Shown one piece after another: positions 3,388 through 31,265 of a DNA stretch of 32,962 nucleotides. Both the position numbers and the translations under genes were made by a program. The notes under the pieces are model-generated. The model saw only the letters and a list, made by a program, of their open reading frames with translations. It did not search any database and was not told the origin of the DNA. How positions within the stretch are numbered: position 1 is the first letter of the stretch; each line of letters opens with the position of its first letter. The DNA is from a virus. The stretch spans positions 1 to 32,962 of IMG/VR virus record IMGVR_UViG_3300047469_000130; one strand, 5' to 3'.

Positions 3388-3755
3388 CTGGTGGTCTGGA
3401 GCTGCTGCTGCCGTGGCCACCGAAGGCGCTCAGCCCGAACGCCCGAACTCACTGGGCTGCAAAGAGCAAGGCCGCGAAGGCCTACCGCAATACCTGCTTT
3501 CTGCTGTGCCGCCAGGCTGCATTGCCAGTGCCCGTTGGCCGTGCGCTGTTGTCGCTGGAGTTCATCCCGCCTGATCGGCGTCGGCGTGACGATGACAACT
3601 GCATCGCGGCCTTCAAGTCTGGCCGTGATGGCGTGGCCCAGGCCCTGGGCATCGACGACAGCCGTTTTGTCACCCAGCTGCAGATCAGTTCTGAAACCAT
3701 CAAGGGCGGTGCGGTTAGGGTGCGCATCTCCGATTACATTGAGGGCAATGCATGA
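3384..3755 (+). CDS. rusA: RusA family Holliday junction resolvase
   Basis: This 123-residue protein, about the length of E. coli RusA (120), starts at a GTG in a 4-nt overlap. RusA features seen are PWPPKALSPNARTHWAAKSKA near the N-terminus, and the metal-binding block RRRRDDDNCIAAFKSGRDGV with acidic residues about 69-71 and 82. A second acidic block, GIDDSRF (Asp91-92), follows. The enzyme cuts four-way DNA junctions as a dimer, resolving recombination intermediates and branched replication products before packaging. It lies between the YbcO-like nuclease and the integrase in one coupled operon. Confidence 0.9.
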   Translation: MTGGLELLLPWPPKALSPNARTHWAAKSKAAKAYRNTCFLLCRQAALPVPVGRALLSLEFIPPDRRRRDDDNCIAAFKSGRDGVAQALGIDDSRFVTQLQISSETIKGGAVRVRISDYIEGNA

Positions 3756-5038
3756 GCACCGCGGTGGTCAAGATCACGGATGCCGAAATTAAGCGGCAGT
3801 CGGCCGGCGCCGTCCGGGATTTGCGGGACATCGAGAATCGTGGCCTGTACCTGCGCTTCGCACAGGACCGTGCCCGAGCGTCGTGGTATCTGGTGCTGCG
3901 CGGCAAGTGGAACCTGGTCGGCAACTTTCCCGACCTCACGGCAAAGCAGGTCGTCACGGCACTGCCGGGCATTCGCCTGCGGCTCGACGCCGGCGCCGGT
4001 TCAACTCTTTCCAAATGGGTGACCACCCGCGAGCTGCTGGACTGGTTCGCTGATCGCATGTCGCGGGACCGCAATCTATCGGACAAGCGCAAGAACACCG
4101 GCGCATCGGCCATCAAGTGCCATCTGATACCGCGCCTGGGTGAACTCCCGCTGACCAGCATCGACAAGGCCACGCTCGATAGCGCGCTGATGTGGCCGCT
4201 TCAGGAAAACATCTCCATTGACTATGTGCGGTCGGTGTTCCAGCTGCTGGCCCTGGCCTTCCGCCAGGCGTTCAAGCTTCGGCTGATTTCGGACAATCCA
4301 ATGAAAGACATCAAGTTCAAGGACTTCTCCACGGCCAAGGTCGGGATCAAGCCTTCGCGTCTGCGCGGCACCCAGTTGCAGGAACTGCTGACCAGCCTGG
4401 CGGGTGCGCTGTCGCAGACCCCGGCTGACGGCATGCTGGCGCTGATGATGCTCTGCCACGGCACGCGCATCGGCGAAACCCGGCAAGCCCGGTGGTCCCA
4501 CATCAGCCTGGCCGAGCGCGAATGGTTCATTCCGGGCGAGCACACCAAGACCAACGCCGAGCATCACCTGCCACTGACTGACCAGGTGCGGTGCCTGCTG
4601 GTCTGGTATCGGGAACAGCAACAGGCCACGGGCTACGACGGGCAGTTCCTGTTCCCTGGGCGCAGTGGTGAAGGGCTGAGCGAGGGCAGGGCCAGCGCGG
4701 TGTTCTCCCGTGTTGGCCGGGGCGAATGGACCAGCCATGATCTGCGCAAACTTGCTCGCACCTGCTGGGCTGATATCGGCATCGACCATCTGATCGGTGA
4801 GCTGCTGATCAACCACGCCATGGGCCATAACGTGAAGGTTTACGTGCAGTCCGGAGTGATGGACCGCAAGCGCGATGCCTTGGAGAAGTGGCATGCCCAT
4901 CTAGACGAGAAGGGCATGACCCTCATTCACGCATTGACCGGCTTTAGATACGAAGATTCTCATAACTCCCTACAGCCCACGGACGACGTGGCCTCTAGCG
5001 CAGATGCCAACACCACCATAGGCGAGGTTTCAAAATGA
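3752..5038 (+). CDS. Tyrosine-family site-specific recombinase (phage integrase)
   Basis: This 428-residue protein has an N-terminal arm/core-binding region (about 1-200) and a catalytic domain (about 205-385). Catalytic residues seen are Arg239 in HGTRIGE, Lys266 in HTKT, His329 and Arg332 in SHDLRKLAR, His355 in INHAMGH and the Tyr364 nucleophile in VYVQS. A downstream DRKRDALEKW helix is typical of P4-like integrases. The last about 35 residues are low-complexity. The complete set predicts an active enzyme for integration and excision. The gene overlaps rusA and the following gene by 4 nt each, an unusual place for an integrase. No att site was recognised nearby. Confidence 0.92.
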   Translation: MSTAVVKITDAEIKRQSAGAVRDLRDIENRGLYLRFAQDRARASWYLVLRGKWNLVGNFPDLTAKQVVTALPGIRLRLDAGAGSTLSKWVTTRELLDWFADRMSRDRNLSDKRKNTGASAIKCHLIPRLGELPLTSIDKATLDSALMWPLQENISIDYVRSVFQLLALAFRQAFKLRLISDNPMKDIKFKDFSTAKVGIKPSRLRGTQLQELLTSLAGALSQTPADGMLALMMLCHGTRIGETRQARWSHISLAEREWFIPGEHTKTNAEHHLPLTDQVRCLLVWYREQQQATGYDGQFLFPGRSGEGLSEGRASAVFSRVGRGEWTSHDLRKLARTCWADIGIDHLIGELLINHAMGHNVKVYVQSGVMDRKRDALEKWHAHLDEKGMTLIHALTGFRYEDSHNSLQPTDDVASSADANTTIGEVSK

Positions 5039-24991: not shown

Positions 24992-25587
24992 TGGGGCGCG
25001 ATGATCAGAGCGGCGCCATGGCCAGGCTATGGCGCCGTGTAGTGCTTATGTCTGCTTGGGGTCGGGTGACGCTCAGCGACGACCTGAAGTCGGTGCAAGG
25101 GCTGCAGGTCAAGCTAAACGATTCGGAAACTTGCGACGACATACCCAGAGTCGCGGAGTTTGGTCTTACTTCGAGGCCGCCCGTTGGTTCGGATGTACTG
25201 GTGGCATTCCTCGGCGGGGACCGGTCCAAAGGTGTAGTGATCGGCACAGCGCACCAGTCCAGTCGGCCGGGAGGGCTGAACGAGGGAGAAACCATGCTGT
25301 ATGACCTTTGGGGCAAGAGCATCTATTTCACCCAGGACGGCGGGATTATTGTCGAGGCCAATGGGACCCCGGTCACGGTCAATAATGCTACCACCGTGAC
25401 TATCAACGCCAGTGAGCAGGTGCTGCTCGCCACTCCACTGGTTAAGGCTACGGGAGATTTGCAGGTGGCTGGCAACATCACCGCCGGCGGCGACATCACA
25501 GACAAGGTGCGCAGCATGGCGGCGGACCGGCTCATATATAACGGCCATAAACACGGCTCCAGCCCACTACCGGATGCCCAGCAATGA
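24988..25587 (+). CDS. Baseplate assembly protein V / tail spike, Mu gp45-like
   Basis: The protein has 199 residues from the ATG at 24988, chosen for GGAG at 24977-24980 and the 4-nt overlap. The N-terminal OB-like domain ([45 protein letters not shown] landmarks) is followed by a beta-helix ([19 protein letters not shown]). The tip is GHKHGSSP with His187 and His189. In Mu and P2 spikes an HxH motif at the tip binds iron and forms the membrane-piercing apex. The same function is expected here. Confidence 0.92.
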
Positions 25588-26027
25588 GTGATATCTCCAC
25601 AACCTGGCTCGTCGAAACGGGCGTCGGCGATTGGTCGATTTCTGGCGGTGCGCTGGCCAGTGGCGATGATCTTGCCTCATCTGTACTGATCAGCCTGTTC
25701 ACGGATCGCGTGGCGGGCGATGACGATGTGCCGCCGGACGGCAGCGATGACCGCCGCGGCTGGTGGGGTGATGAGGGTGAGGACGTATCGATTGGCTCGC
25801 ATTTGTGGCTTCTGGATCGGTCCAGGCTGAGCACCGACGTCGCCAACACCGCCCGGATTTACATCGAGGACGCCCTGAAGTGGTTGATCGATGACGAGGT
25901 GGCCACGGCCGTGACTGTCGTTACCACCATCCAGGGTGCCAGCAGGCTCGATGCCATTGTGCTGATTACTCGCCGAGACGGCACGACTGCCCAGCTGCGG
26001 TATAACTGGGCATGGGCGACCAAGTAA
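25584..26027 (+). CDS. Baseplate wedge protein, Mu gp46-like (GP46 family)
   Basis: This 147-residue protein matches the GP46/GpW-like wedge family. A variable N-terminus is followed by [37 protein letters not shown] and a helix with [18 protein letters not shown]. The Trp-Trp-Gly-Asp motif is characteristic. The protein joins the baseplate wedge and hub. Its TAA is immediately followed, with no gap, by the stop of the opposite-strand gene, so a foreign gene has been placed exactly at its end. Confidence 0.9.
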
Positions 26028-26552
26028 CTAAAACGGCTGCGTGTTTTCCTGCTTCAATGAGCAATCCACAAACTTCTTGAGGGGCAGCCTTATACCCTTG
26101 AGCCCGGCCGTCCAAGGCTGCTCACTCCCGCTTTTGAATCCTATTCTGAAGGTTTTTGAGTCCGCGAGCAGGCCTAGAAAAATCGCAGTTGCATCAGACG
26201 GCAAAGAAATATCTACGACCTTTCCATCACCGTACGCGTCGATGGACAAGGGCTGATCATCCATGAAGTCGATGAACACCGGGATGGATTTACCCTGCGG
26301 TATGTTCCATGAGTCTTTATAAAGGGTGACATTTAGGGAGTCATGTCCGGCAAGTTGCTTTACAACAATGTTCTTGGCGGTGGCACCAGAACTAGCGGCT
26401 GTAAGCAAAGAGCAAAGAGGCGTGTTTTTTGAGGTGCGCCCTTGATCGAAGCTCCATTTACTAAAGTCCTGAGCTGCTGCCGAAGCAGCTCCAGATAACA
26501 GCAATAAGGAACAGAGTCCCGACGTGATCGCGGATCGTTTGAACATCTGCAT
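26028..26552 (-). CDS. Secreted protein of unknown function, opposite-strand moron candidate
   Basis: The protein has 174 residues. The start at 26552 is chosen for GGGAG 4 bp upstream; ATGs at 26576 and 26546 are alternatives. The N-terminus is a clear Sec signal peptide (MQMFKRSAITSGLCSLLLLS, then Ala-rich, cleavage near SAAAQ/DFS). The mature part has two Cys (in TPLCSLLTA and KFVDCSL) that could form a disulfide, and a beta-rich body with IPQGKSIPVFIDF. I do not recognise the family. It is the only clear minus-strand gene. Its GC is about 50% in counted lines against about 65% nearby, and it splits the baseplate genes. It may act in the lysogen. Confidence 0.85.
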   Translation of the reverse strand: MQMFKRSAITSGLCSLLLLSGAASAAAQDFSKWSFDQGRTSKNTPLCSLLTAASSGATAKNIVVKQLAGHDSLNVTLYKDSWNIPQGKSIPVFIDFMDDQPLSIDAYGDGKVVDISLPSDATAIFLGLLADSKTFRIGFKSGSEQPWTAGLKGIRLPLKKFVDCSLKQENTQPF

Positions 26553-26609
26553 TCCACTCCCTGAGCATGATGGCAAATTGGTTGCTTTTTACTTTAACTG
26601 AAATGCGAA

Positions 26610-26631
26610 CCCGCTAAGGCGGGCTTTTTTT
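26610..26631 (+). terminator. Terminator in front of the baseplate J gene
   Basis: CCCGC (26610-26614) and GCGGG (26619-26623) form the stem with a TAAG loop, then CTTTTTTT. CGTCTGGAGAA and the baseplate J ATG (26649) follow. The hairpin lies between the upstream end of the moron and the next tail gene, so it could also stop transcripts crossing the moron. Confidence 0.7.
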
Positions 26632-26648: not shown

Positions 26649-27776
26649 ATGCCGTATCCAAGGCCGACGCTCTCAGATCTGCGAGCACAGACCGCCTCCG
26701 ATATCACGGCGGGGCTGCCGACCGTTGACGGCTTGCTTCGCTTCTCGAACATGCAAATCACCGGCAAGGCTGTTGCTGGCCTGGCCCACTTGAACTATGG
26801 CTATCTCGACTGGATTTCTAAGCAAGCAACACCGTTCACCAGCTCTGCCGAATACCTCGAAGGCTGGGCCGGGCTGAAGAAGGTATTTCGCAAGACCGCT
26901 TCCTATGCGAGCGGCGCGGTTACCTTTACCGGTTCGCCTGGTGTAGTGATCGACGCCGGTACCGAGGTTGCGCGCAGTGACTCGGTGACATTCACCACCC
27001 AGGACAGCGCCACGGTTGGCGCGGGCAACATGGTCACTGTAACGGTCTTGGCTGACGTGGCGGGCGAGGCTGGCAACACGCCTATAGGCAGTCTGATGAC
27101 CTTGGGTGTTGCTATCGATGGGATTCAGTCGAGCGGGGCGGTGACGGCGGTCATTACGGGCGGCGCCGATCAAGAACTCGATGAGTCACTGTTCAACCGC
27201 ATGCTCGACGCCTATCAGGCCACGGCCAATGGCGGCTCAAAATCTGATTACGTGACATGGGCCGAAGCGATCCCTGGTATCACCCGGGCGTGGTCGAGAC
27301 CTAACGGGTTTGGCGTCGGGACGGTTGTCCTTTACGCGATGCTTGATGACGCGAACTCGGCTTACGGCGGCTTTCCCCAGGGGCAAAACGGCATGTCTCA
27401 AAAGGACAACCGAGCGGCCCAGGGCAGCATCGCCACCGGCGATCAATTGAATATTGCCGACACCGTGTTCGCCCTCCAGCCTGCGACAGCACTGGTCTAC
27501 GTCTGCTCGCCGCTGCCCAACCCGATCAATTTCACTATTACCGGCCTGACCAACGCCTCGACCGATCTGCGCGCCGATATCTCGGCGGCGATCACCGAAG
27601 TGTTCCTGGAGCAGGGTGACCCGACCACGGACAACGCTGTCGTGGCGCTCAGCGACATCGAGTCATCCATTGCAGCGATCTCGGGCACAAAGGGCTTCGT
27701 CATCACGTACCCGGCCGGAAATATCGCAAACACCATCGGCCACTTGCCGACCCTGGGCGTCATCACTTACCCCTGA
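26649..27776 (+). CDS. Baseplate J-like wedge protein, Mu gp47-like
   Basis: This 375-residue protein (Mu gp47 357) has the baseplate J pattern. It opens MPYPRPTLSDLRAQTASDIT, followed by FLEGWAGLK-type sequence (here YLEGWAGLKKVFRKTASYA) and GSPGVVIDAGTEVARSDSVTF. Beta strands (AGNMVTVTVLADVAGEAGN) and LDAYQATANGGSKSDYVTWA complete it. It forms the wedge arms around the hub, linking sheath and tail fibres. A terminator and ribosome-site cassette precede it. Confidence 0.93.
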   Translation: MPYPRPTLSDLRAQTASDITAGLPTVDGLLRFSNMQITGKAVAGLAHLNYGYLDWISKQATPFTSSAEYLEGWAGLKKVFRKTASYASGAVTFTGSPGVVIDAGTEVARSDSVTFTTQDSATVGAGNMVTVTVLADVAGEAGNTPIGSLMTLGVAIDGIQSSGAVTAVITGGADQELDESLFNRMLDAYQATANGGSKSDYVTWAEAIPGITRAWSRPNGFGVGTVVLYAMLDDANSAYGGFPQGQNGMSQKDNRAAQGSIATGDQLNIADTVFALQPATALVYVCSPLPNPINFTITGLTNASTDLRADISAAITEVFLEQGDPTTDNAVVALSDIESSIAAISGTKGFVITYPAGNIANTIGHLPTLGVITYP

Positions 27777-29304: not shown

Positions 29305-29637
29305 ATGGCTAGCGGAACACTCGGCACGCCTGCAAGTATGCTGGCAGCGACTTATACGACGATTTATACCGTCCCGACTGGAAAGGTCGCGACTGTAAAT
29401 CTAAACTTGGTTAACACGAACTATGCGGCTGTTCTAGTGCGAGTAGCTATCACCAGTTCTGGCACGCCAGGTGCAAACGACTGGGTCGAATACGACGCTT
29501 ATTTAAAAGCTGCTGGCGATCTAACCAATAGCAACGTTTTAGAACGTACTGCATTCATGCTCGAAGCAGGAAAGAGTATTGTTTGCTACTCGAATACGGC
29601 CGGTGTTACAGCGCGTGCATACGGCGCAGAGGGTTAA
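29305..29637 (+). CDS. Small beta-rich tail/fibre-associated protein
   Basis: This 110-residue protein starts directly after the fibre stop. It is almost entirely predicted beta (TYTTIYTVPTGKVATVNLNLV, AVLVRVAITSSG, FMLEAGKSIVCYSN), like small beta-sandwich proteins that occur beside tail fibres. GC falls sharply here compared with the fibre gene. It is probably a virion component or fibre tip subunit. I know no function. Confidence 0.65.
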   Translation: MASGTLGTPASMLAATYTTIYTVPTGKVATVNLNLVNTNYAAVLVRVAITSSGTPGANDWVEYDAYLKAAGDLTNSNVLERTAFMLEAGKSIVCYSNTAGVTARAYGAEG

Positions 29638-29640
29638 TAA

Positions 29641-30756
29641 ATGAGCCGCACTATTGGCGCTACAAACAATCTTACGGTTAGCAGTACGCCCCTCGGCGGG
29701 CTCGCTACTGTTTTTGCAAGTGGTGACGCTTATAAAGCCACCGGCACTTCGATTCAGCGTTCGGTTTATACCGATATGTCAGTTGCTTTTCCACGGCGGT
29801 CCGCTTATTCAGCATCAACAAGCTCTGCTTCTGTGTCTGGCTATTACACAGGTATGGCCTTCGGCGCGGGGCTTTTCGTCGCATTGAGCGGAGTCAATGG
29901 AGGCGAGCAAATAAACTGTCTAACGTCGCCTGACGGAATCAACTGGAGCTCTAGGGCTATGCCAGCCAGTCTTTCGTGGAACGGCGCGGCCTACGGGGCT
30001 GGTAAGTTCGTTGCGGTTGCAACTGGTCAGGGGGCAGTGGCTACTACCGTTAACGCCATTTCAACTGATGGAATCACTTGGACAGCCGGTACAATGCCCT
30101 CGGGATTATGGAGGGCAATTGTTTGGAACCCCGTAATTAGCTTATTTATCGCCATTTCTGGCGGTGAAGCTGGGTCGTCTACGGTCGCTGCGACATCCCC
30201 CGATGGCGTGACTTGGACAGCCAGGACTCTGCCAACCGCAGGCACCTGGTATGGCCTAGCAGTCAGCGATACAGGGGTCATCGTCGCCACCTCTCAAGAC
30301 GGAAAAATTATACGATCAGTCGATGGTATTACTTGGACAAACGGAACGGTCCCGTCTGCATCGAATTGGTGTTCGGTGGCCTTCGGTAAGGGGCTATTTG
30401 TCTCCTGCTCGTTAGTGTCAAACGCTATTGTAACATCGCCAGATGGAATCACTTGGACAGCACGAACTACGCCAACAAACTTTCCGGGCGGAAAGGTTGT
30501 ATTCGGTAACGGCGTATTCGTCGTCTACGCTAACAGCAGTACTGCCGGTATGACTTCAAATGACGGCTTGATTTGGAATATTCGAGTTGTGCCGATTAGC
30601 ACCCAATACGGTGGCATTGCGTACGGCGCAGGGGTCGTAGTATCGGGCACAAAGATTTCCTCTGCCACTTTCGCATTGATTTACGCCGAAAATGATACCG
30701 ATAGTGATTGGATGTATCTAAATGGTACGGCCGGTCAATATGTGAGGGTTAAATAA
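29641..30756 (+). CDS. Predicted beta-propeller receptor-binding protein
   Basis: This 371-residue protein has a short N-terminal part (about 1-95) and then six units of about 40-45 residues. Each is marked by S-x-D-G-x-x-W: SPDGINW, STDGITW, SPDGVTW, SVDGITW, SPDGITW and SNDGLIW. Units also carry GAGKFVAV-like strands. The pattern resembles Asp-box or BNR repeats and predicts a six-bladed propeller, a fold common in carbohydrate binding. No catalytic residues were identified. GC is about 45% in two counted lines, well below the rest of the genome. It is the best candidate for the host-range adhesin. Confidence 0.8.
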   Translation: MSRTIGATNNLTVSSTPLGGLATVFASGDAYKATGTSIQRSVYTDMSVAFPRRSAYSASTSSASVSGYYTGMAFGAGLFVALSGVNGGEQINCLTSPDGINWSSRAMPASLSWNGAAYGAGKFVAVATGQGAVATTVNAISTDGITWTAGTMPSGLWRAIVWNPVISLFIAISGGEAGSSTVAATSPDGVTWTARTLPTAGTWYGLAVSDTGVIVATSQDGKIIRSVDGITWTNGTVPSASNWCSVAFGKGLFVSCSLVSNAIVTSPDGITWTARTTPTNFPGGKVVFGNGVFVVYANSSTAGMTSNDGLIWNIRVVPISTQYGGIAYGAGVVVSGTKISSATFALIYAENDTDSDWMYLNGTAGQYVRVK

Positions 30757-31265
30757 TGACCGTTAGTTACATATACAACGCTCAGGGGTATCTGTCTGGT
30801 ATTTATGACGGTGACGGCTTACCGGACAGTTCCACAACTTTACAGCCAATCCATACAGACGGTTATACCCCGCAGTTCTTGGATGGCGCCTGGGTCGATC
30901 AAAACACACCGGCATCCGATAGCTGGGAGTCAAAGATAGCTGATCGCCGCTACACCGCCGAGGTGCGCGGTTTCATCTGGAACACCGTGTTCATAGACAC
31001 CGACCGCATATCTCAACCCAAGATCGCATCTGCCCGGGCGGCGGCGAAGGACGGCGTGCGCAGCGATACGGCAGTCTGGAAGTGCGGCAACCCGCTAACC
31101 GGCCTGGCCATCTACCGGGTGACCACCAACGTCGAGATGATCGAGATTGCCGACGCCGCGTTCAACTACGTGCAGGCGTGCTACGACCGTGAGGGCGTGC
31201 TGATCGCCGCTGTGGCTGATAGCACGATCACTGCCGCGATGGTCGATGAGGGCTGGCCAACATGA
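30756..31265 (+). CDS. Tail fibre assembly-like protein with DUF4376 domain
   Basis: The protein has 169 residues. The N-terminal 60 (VSYIYNAQGYLSGIYDGDG, LDGAWVDQ) resemble the start of tail-fibre assembly proteins. The remainder matches DUF4376: RRYTAEVRGFIWNTVFIDTDRISQPKIASA, shown here by its landmarks VFIDTDR and FNYVQACYDRE. These proteins often lie directly behind the adhesin gene and assist or extend it. Base composition changes within the gene, from AT-rich to about 70% GC near 31000. Start and end overlap the neighbours by 1 and 4 nt. Confidence 0.8.
   Translation: MTVSYIYNAQGYLSGIYDGDGLPDSSTTLQPIHTDGYTPQFLDGAWVDQNTPASDSWESKIADRRYTAEVRGFIWNTVFIDTDRISQPKIASARAAAKDGVRSDTAVWKCGNPLTGLAIYRVTTNVEMIEIADAAFNYVQACYDREGVLIAAVADSTITAAMVDEGWPT

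Follow-up and report, generated by a model that had tools for sequence, protein, structure and literature searches.

A recently inserted moron for a putative exported protein between two baseplate genes of a Pseudomonas-type prophage

Introduction

Morons of lambdoid and Mu-like phages are single genes that separate two genes lying side by side in related phages. They deviate in GC content, the cargo at a given site varies, and a terminator of their own is a usual but not obligatory feature (PMC4378225). That such genes can act in superinfection exclusion is well documented, as exemplified by sieA of phage P22, which lies between the virion genes 16 and 9 and whose product blocks DNA injection (PMC10883804). 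The T4 protein Spackle is a periplasmic protein blocking entry by inhibition of the tail lysozyme (PMC7677548), and the accessory gene STMMW_20121 of ST64B, which is antisense to lytic genes, is transcribed from its own promoter (PMC7067206). Here, we describe a minus-strand gene in the IMG/VR record IMGVR_UViG_3300047469_000130, whose entire 32,962 bp (referred to as the window) were analyzed. The capsid and Mu-like tail genes of the window are encoded on the plus strand, and the phage itself is a prophage of Pseudomonas type. Like the morons of lambdoid and Mu-like phages, the gene is a single gene of deviant GC content between neighbors that adjoin each other in relatives, at a site with varying cargo, and it is almost certainly an accessory gene of this kind, inserted between gp46 and gp47. 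STMMW_20121 is a different gene but shares the antisense position in a prophage with a related gp47 (31% to the gp47 of the window).

Results

For comparison of the gp46-gp47 junction, gp47 served as bait to collect 49 viral contigs, some of them redundant, and five Pseudomonas genome loci. Both flanking genes were found in 49 relatives besides the window. In 45 of these they are separated by a gap of approx. 5–67 bp without any gene, and the remaining four carry other cargo. The near relative L003 shares 94.6% and 93.3% amino acid identity in gp46 and gp47, respectively, and lacks the gene. Its alignment to the window stops at position 26028 and restarts at 26607. Between these points, L003 contributes 4 bp, so that the inserted DNA (26029..26606) comprises 578 bp with a GC content of 48.8% replacing 4 bp. 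The absence of the gene from nearly all relatives with the same tail differs from the conservation expected of a virion protein, and, given the empty sites, the reading as a virion gene within an intact Mu-like operon was rejected. An earlier note on this DNA, made from the sequence alone, had suggested a late acquisition with independent expression in the lysogen and had named silence in lysogens together with conservation in all relatives as a virion component as the observation that would speak against this view. Examination of the relatives did not reveal such conservation, and presence or absence at the exact junction agrees with late acquisition: the site is empty in L003, holds the same gene in L004 and is filled with different cargo in L002, L027, L028, L053 and L023.

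Contig L004 starts inside the same gene. All 72 available coding bases and 54 of the 55 leader bases are identical to the window (126 of 127), compared with 85.6% identity in gp47, which indicates that the moron moved recently. At the divergence of gp47, the probability of at most one mismatch in 127 positions is approx. 6e-8, a crude estimate that ignores differences in constraint. Identity to L004 drops from 99% to approx. 85% within the first 150 bp of gp47, a pattern that a recent recombination would produce. A 29-mer of the gene had an exact match in no other viral contig, and the gene is restricted to these two contigs. Another stretch of low GC content (49–53%) at positions 29500–31000 of the window comprises two tail-end genes of 371 and 169 amino acids, which diverge fastest from L004.

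The coding sequence including the stop codon (26028..26552, minus strand) specifies a protein of 174 amino acids, P0001, which opens MQMFKRSAITSGLCSLLLLSGAASAAAQ. It is flanked on the left by a gp46-like baseplate gene (25584..26027, plus strand; PF07409, E 1e-32) and on the right by a gp47-like baseplate J gene (26649..27776, plus strand; Baseplate_J, E 3.7e-57). The gp46 stop codon TAA (26025–26027) is directly followed by the complement of the moron stop codon, CTA (26028–26030), leaving 0 bp between the convergent stops. With a GC content of 49.7% (56.6% at third positions), the gene differs from its neighbors (60–62% and 70–77%, respectively). Searches of the protein against Pfam, PHROG, NCBIfam and PADLOC yielded no match above chance. 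The position between gp46-like and gp47-like genes, the abutting stops, the lower GC content and the unrecognised family had all been described in the earlier note and are confirmed here. Its gene extent probably requires revision. The open reading frame (ORF) as first listed (26028–26576) begins with TTG at 26576, eight residues upstream of ATG 26552. This TTG is likely too early, and ATG 26552 or ATG 26546 is probably the start, because the ribosome-binding sequence AGGGAG lies just upstream and the relatives align from there.

By inspection, the N-terminus of P0001 reads as a type I signal peptide (residues 1–27, 26472..26552, minus strand), in which KR is followed by a hydrophobic core and ASAAA, suggesting that the protein is exported; model confidence is low for residues 1–26. 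A lipoprotein was rejected since P0001 contains no lipobox. The strong signal peptide and two mature cysteines pointed out before are both recognizable, the latter as C47 and C164. The two cysteines are invariant in the aligned family and probably form a disulfide. AlphaFold prediction from the single sequence reached a predicted local distance difference test (pLDDT) score of only 51. Input of three sequences sufficed for a mean of 81.7 (model md539293a789a), with residues 30–170 mostly at approx. 90 or above. The modeled domain appears to be beta-rich with a C-terminal helix-strand-strand-helix arrangement: the strands are followed by a helix (119–131), two strands (134–139 and 147–150) and a second helix (155–166). 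A fold search of the model against the PDB returned no entry at E<0.001. In BFVD, three proteins were found at E<0.001, the best being A0A482MG18 of Serratia phage MTx (8.4e-5), and the next match was D9IC73 of RB16 (4.2e-3). The latter is probably RB16p012, as the ORF length matches, and RB16p012 begins with a transmembrane (TM) anchor. To our knowledge, no function has been assigned to these BFVD matches.

Searching viral contigs, genome contigs, phages and plasmids directly for homologues revealed nothing. Relatives were obtained from whole-genome scans of 400 genomes of the genus (Pseudomonas), approx. 370 of the class and approx. 400 of the family, with overlapping draws, together with viral contigs. 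Five distinct sequence relatives were found, three of which were aligned with the moron protein at 20–35% identity. The protein of L059/L063 (185 amino acids, 35%) carries a signal peptide, while those of L060/L071 (280 amino acids, approx. 23–27%) and L081/L085 (225 amino acids, 20%) consist of a zinc ribbon, a TM helix and the domain. L087 and L086 are 85% and 67% identical to L081. Residues invariant in the four aligned members include F35, C47, W82, F96, P118, F125, G142, E144, W147 and C164. Since the frame is held at 20–35% identity across the whole domain, the moron ORF is a real gene. The zinc ribbon and TM helix of several relatives place the domain across the inner membrane. Weak matches to chromosomal long ORFs (L057, L058, L066, L073, L074 and L082) were taken as chance.

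All five relatives are located downstream of an S24-type prophage repressor gene on the same strand. They directly adjoin it at a distance of 20 bp in L059/L063 and approx. 40 bp in L081/L085/L087. Two small genes intervene in L060/L071 and one gene in L086, whose repressor was recognised by eye from its C-terminal sequence. Because the repressor of L087 is almost the same as that of L081/L085, these cases represent about four independent repressor contexts. A gene immediately downstream of a prophage repressor gene typically shares its transcript. In the Pseudomonas aeruginosa phage Fc02, the lysogen transcript spans ORFs on either side of the repressor gene, and one of these ORFs confers phage exclusion (PMC9936078). 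The position of the relatives behind repressors thus indirectly supports expression of the moron in the lysogen.

In these phages, the gp46-gp47 junction is a hotspot for cargo. Apart from the moron, a second cargo type of approx. 0.5 kb with a minus-strand ORF of 86 amino acids as the likely gene, belonging to an unrecognised family, is present in L027 (522–1077), L028 (3174–3729) and L053 (5446–6001) and in diverged form in L002 (1–423). A 65% relative of this ORF (L088) was found in one of 150 Pseudomonas genomes. The third type (L023, 3796–6000; 2.2 kb) encodes a minus-strand protein of 193 amino acids with a signal-peptide-like start directly after an Arc-type repressor gene, a second Arc-like ORF and a divergent Bro-N antirepressor-like gene, an arrangement that recalls the P22 immI region, here within a tail operon. 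By inspection, the 193-amino-acid protein is unrelated to the moron protein. Each of the three cargo types begins with minus-strand genes.

A leader of 55 bp (26553..26607, minus strand) with the ribosome-binding sequence AGGGAG extends from an ancestral terminator to the start codon, and any promoter must lie in this leader or further upstream. The terminator (26610..26630, plus strand) is an intrinsic-terminator-like hairpin with a T run, followed by the gp47 ribosome site. A hairpin search of 36 distinct junctions detected such a structure before gp47 in 28. All of these belong to the closer clade, in which nearly all relatives have it (L003, L005–L040 and L051–L055), with stems that vary but remain paired; it was not found in L031 and distant relatives. 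Its presence at nearly all empty sites of the closer relatives shows that it predates the moron. Inside an expected single late operon, a terminator-like hairpin implies antitermination or attenuation. RNAalifold calculated no common structure for the junction, because the alignment does not bring the stems into register.

Elsewhere in the window, a Rha-type regulator with an ANT (KilAC) domain is encoded at the left end (614–1435), and a tyrosine integrase gene (3752–5038, plus strand) lies among the early genes, followed by small genes and packaging genes, and not at the record end. The repressor region of the phage is not within the record. Neither Rfam families, tRNAs nor end repeats were found in the window. 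In the P2-like phages Gemsvirus and Xuanwuvirus (L067, 4016–5246; L070, 3016–4246), a gene for a zinc-ribbon membrane protein is followed by a VasI/TagO-like gene. The pair lies near tail/late-control genes and the integrase, apparently as morons. Klebsiella phage ST405-OXA48phi1.2 (L069, 4010–4678) contains a zinc-ribbon and TM gene on the opposite strand in a run of baseplate genes, a parallel to the present moron.

Discussion

The location as prophage cargo, the predicted export, the repressor linkage and the inner-membrane tethering in relatives indicate an envelope function in lysogeny. It is probable that the protein is made in the lysogen and exported. The moron would be expressed while the late genes are silent, its product would reach the periplasm and, there or at the inner membrane, might interfere with DNA injection by incoming phages. 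The best overall explanation, to which we give about an even chance, is a recently inserted moron for an exported periplasmic protein acting most likely in superinfection exclusion; exclusion as the function, taken by itself, is tentative and falls slightly short of even. P22 SieA resembles the moron protein as an envelope protein of a prophage gene between virion genes, and T4 Spackle as a small exported periplasmic phage protein that can serve as a model for an entry block. Spackle, unlike the moron protein, is expressed early in a virulent phage, and it was not among the PDB sequence and fold matches listed. We know of no sequence similarity between SieA and the moron protein. Both systems would be parallels in effect, by unrelated means.

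Several observations weigh against this explanation. The proteins closest in fold are uncharacterised, several of them coming from T4-like phages, and no similarity to known exclusion proteins or PADLOC models was detected. The promoter search upstream of the gene revealed no sigma-70 consensus, and the best relaxed score was no better than that of shuffled sequences. Beyond the gene, no minus-strand terminator was found, only a short hairpin inside it, so that a moron transcript, if any, may run antisense into gp46. With no recognisable promoter and no minus-strand terminator of its own, the locus differs from the morons of lambdoid and Mu-like phages. The terminator at 26610 belongs to the plus strand and is ancestral.

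Lysogenic conversion that is not directed at phages, by a periplasmic protein altering the host envelope, stress resistance or competition (e.g. one that inhibits lysozyme-like enzymes or acts in secretion), would also account for an exported domain in lysogen-type genomic positions. The order of elements loosely recalls the VasI/TagO domain associated with the type VI secretion system (T6SS), and in some P2-like phages a VasI-like gene directly follows a zinc-ribbon gene. This possibility appears less likely, since neither sequence nor PDB fold links the protein to inhibitor or effector families, and its rarity in bacterial genomes, where it occurs mainly in prophage immunity regions, favors a phage-centred role. 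Membership in VasI/TagO itself (PF11319, TIGR03360), which would make the moron protein a phage-borne copy of a periplasmic protein associated with the T6SS, was attractive by eye: the periplasmic domain, similar length, signal peptide, C-terminal cysteine and, in some P2-like phages, the moron position beside a zinc-ribbon gene correspond, and a local profile alignment covers the same C-terminal region. The profile comparison was not significant (hhalign probability 1.9%, E 0.025), there was no Pfam match to PF11319, and none of the scanned relatives matched PF11319 or TIGR03360, although P0002 of phage 500465-2 matches TIGR03360. A distant relationship is therefore improbable. Even less credence is due to a silent passenger free of selected function. 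The unrecognised promoter and the occurrence in only two contigs would fit, but the intact frame, the conservation of signal peptide and cysteines across a diverse family and the recent transfer between phages do not. A late-expressed minor virion or lysis component is very unlikely despite the position in the tail operon, given that the gene lies on the opposite strand and encodes a signal peptide, that its relatives are located outside the late region, and that the site is empty in L003 and empty or differently filled in the 49 relatives with both flanks.

The element itself is of a known kind, a moron, and its protein family is new and unnamed. More speculatively, with superinfection exclusion as the preferred function, P0001 might found a family with a new periplasmic, entry-blocking anti-phage domain of Pseudomonas prophages, secreted free or tethered by zinc ribbon and TM helix and normally made with the repressor, here traveling as mobile cargo at a hotspot for lysogen-expressed genes at a baseplate gene boundary. 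Being unnamed in the searched profile libraries yet recurrent beside prophage repressors, the family is a tangible candidate for a role in lysogeny, and the gp46-gp47 junction could be mined for more lysogeny genes.
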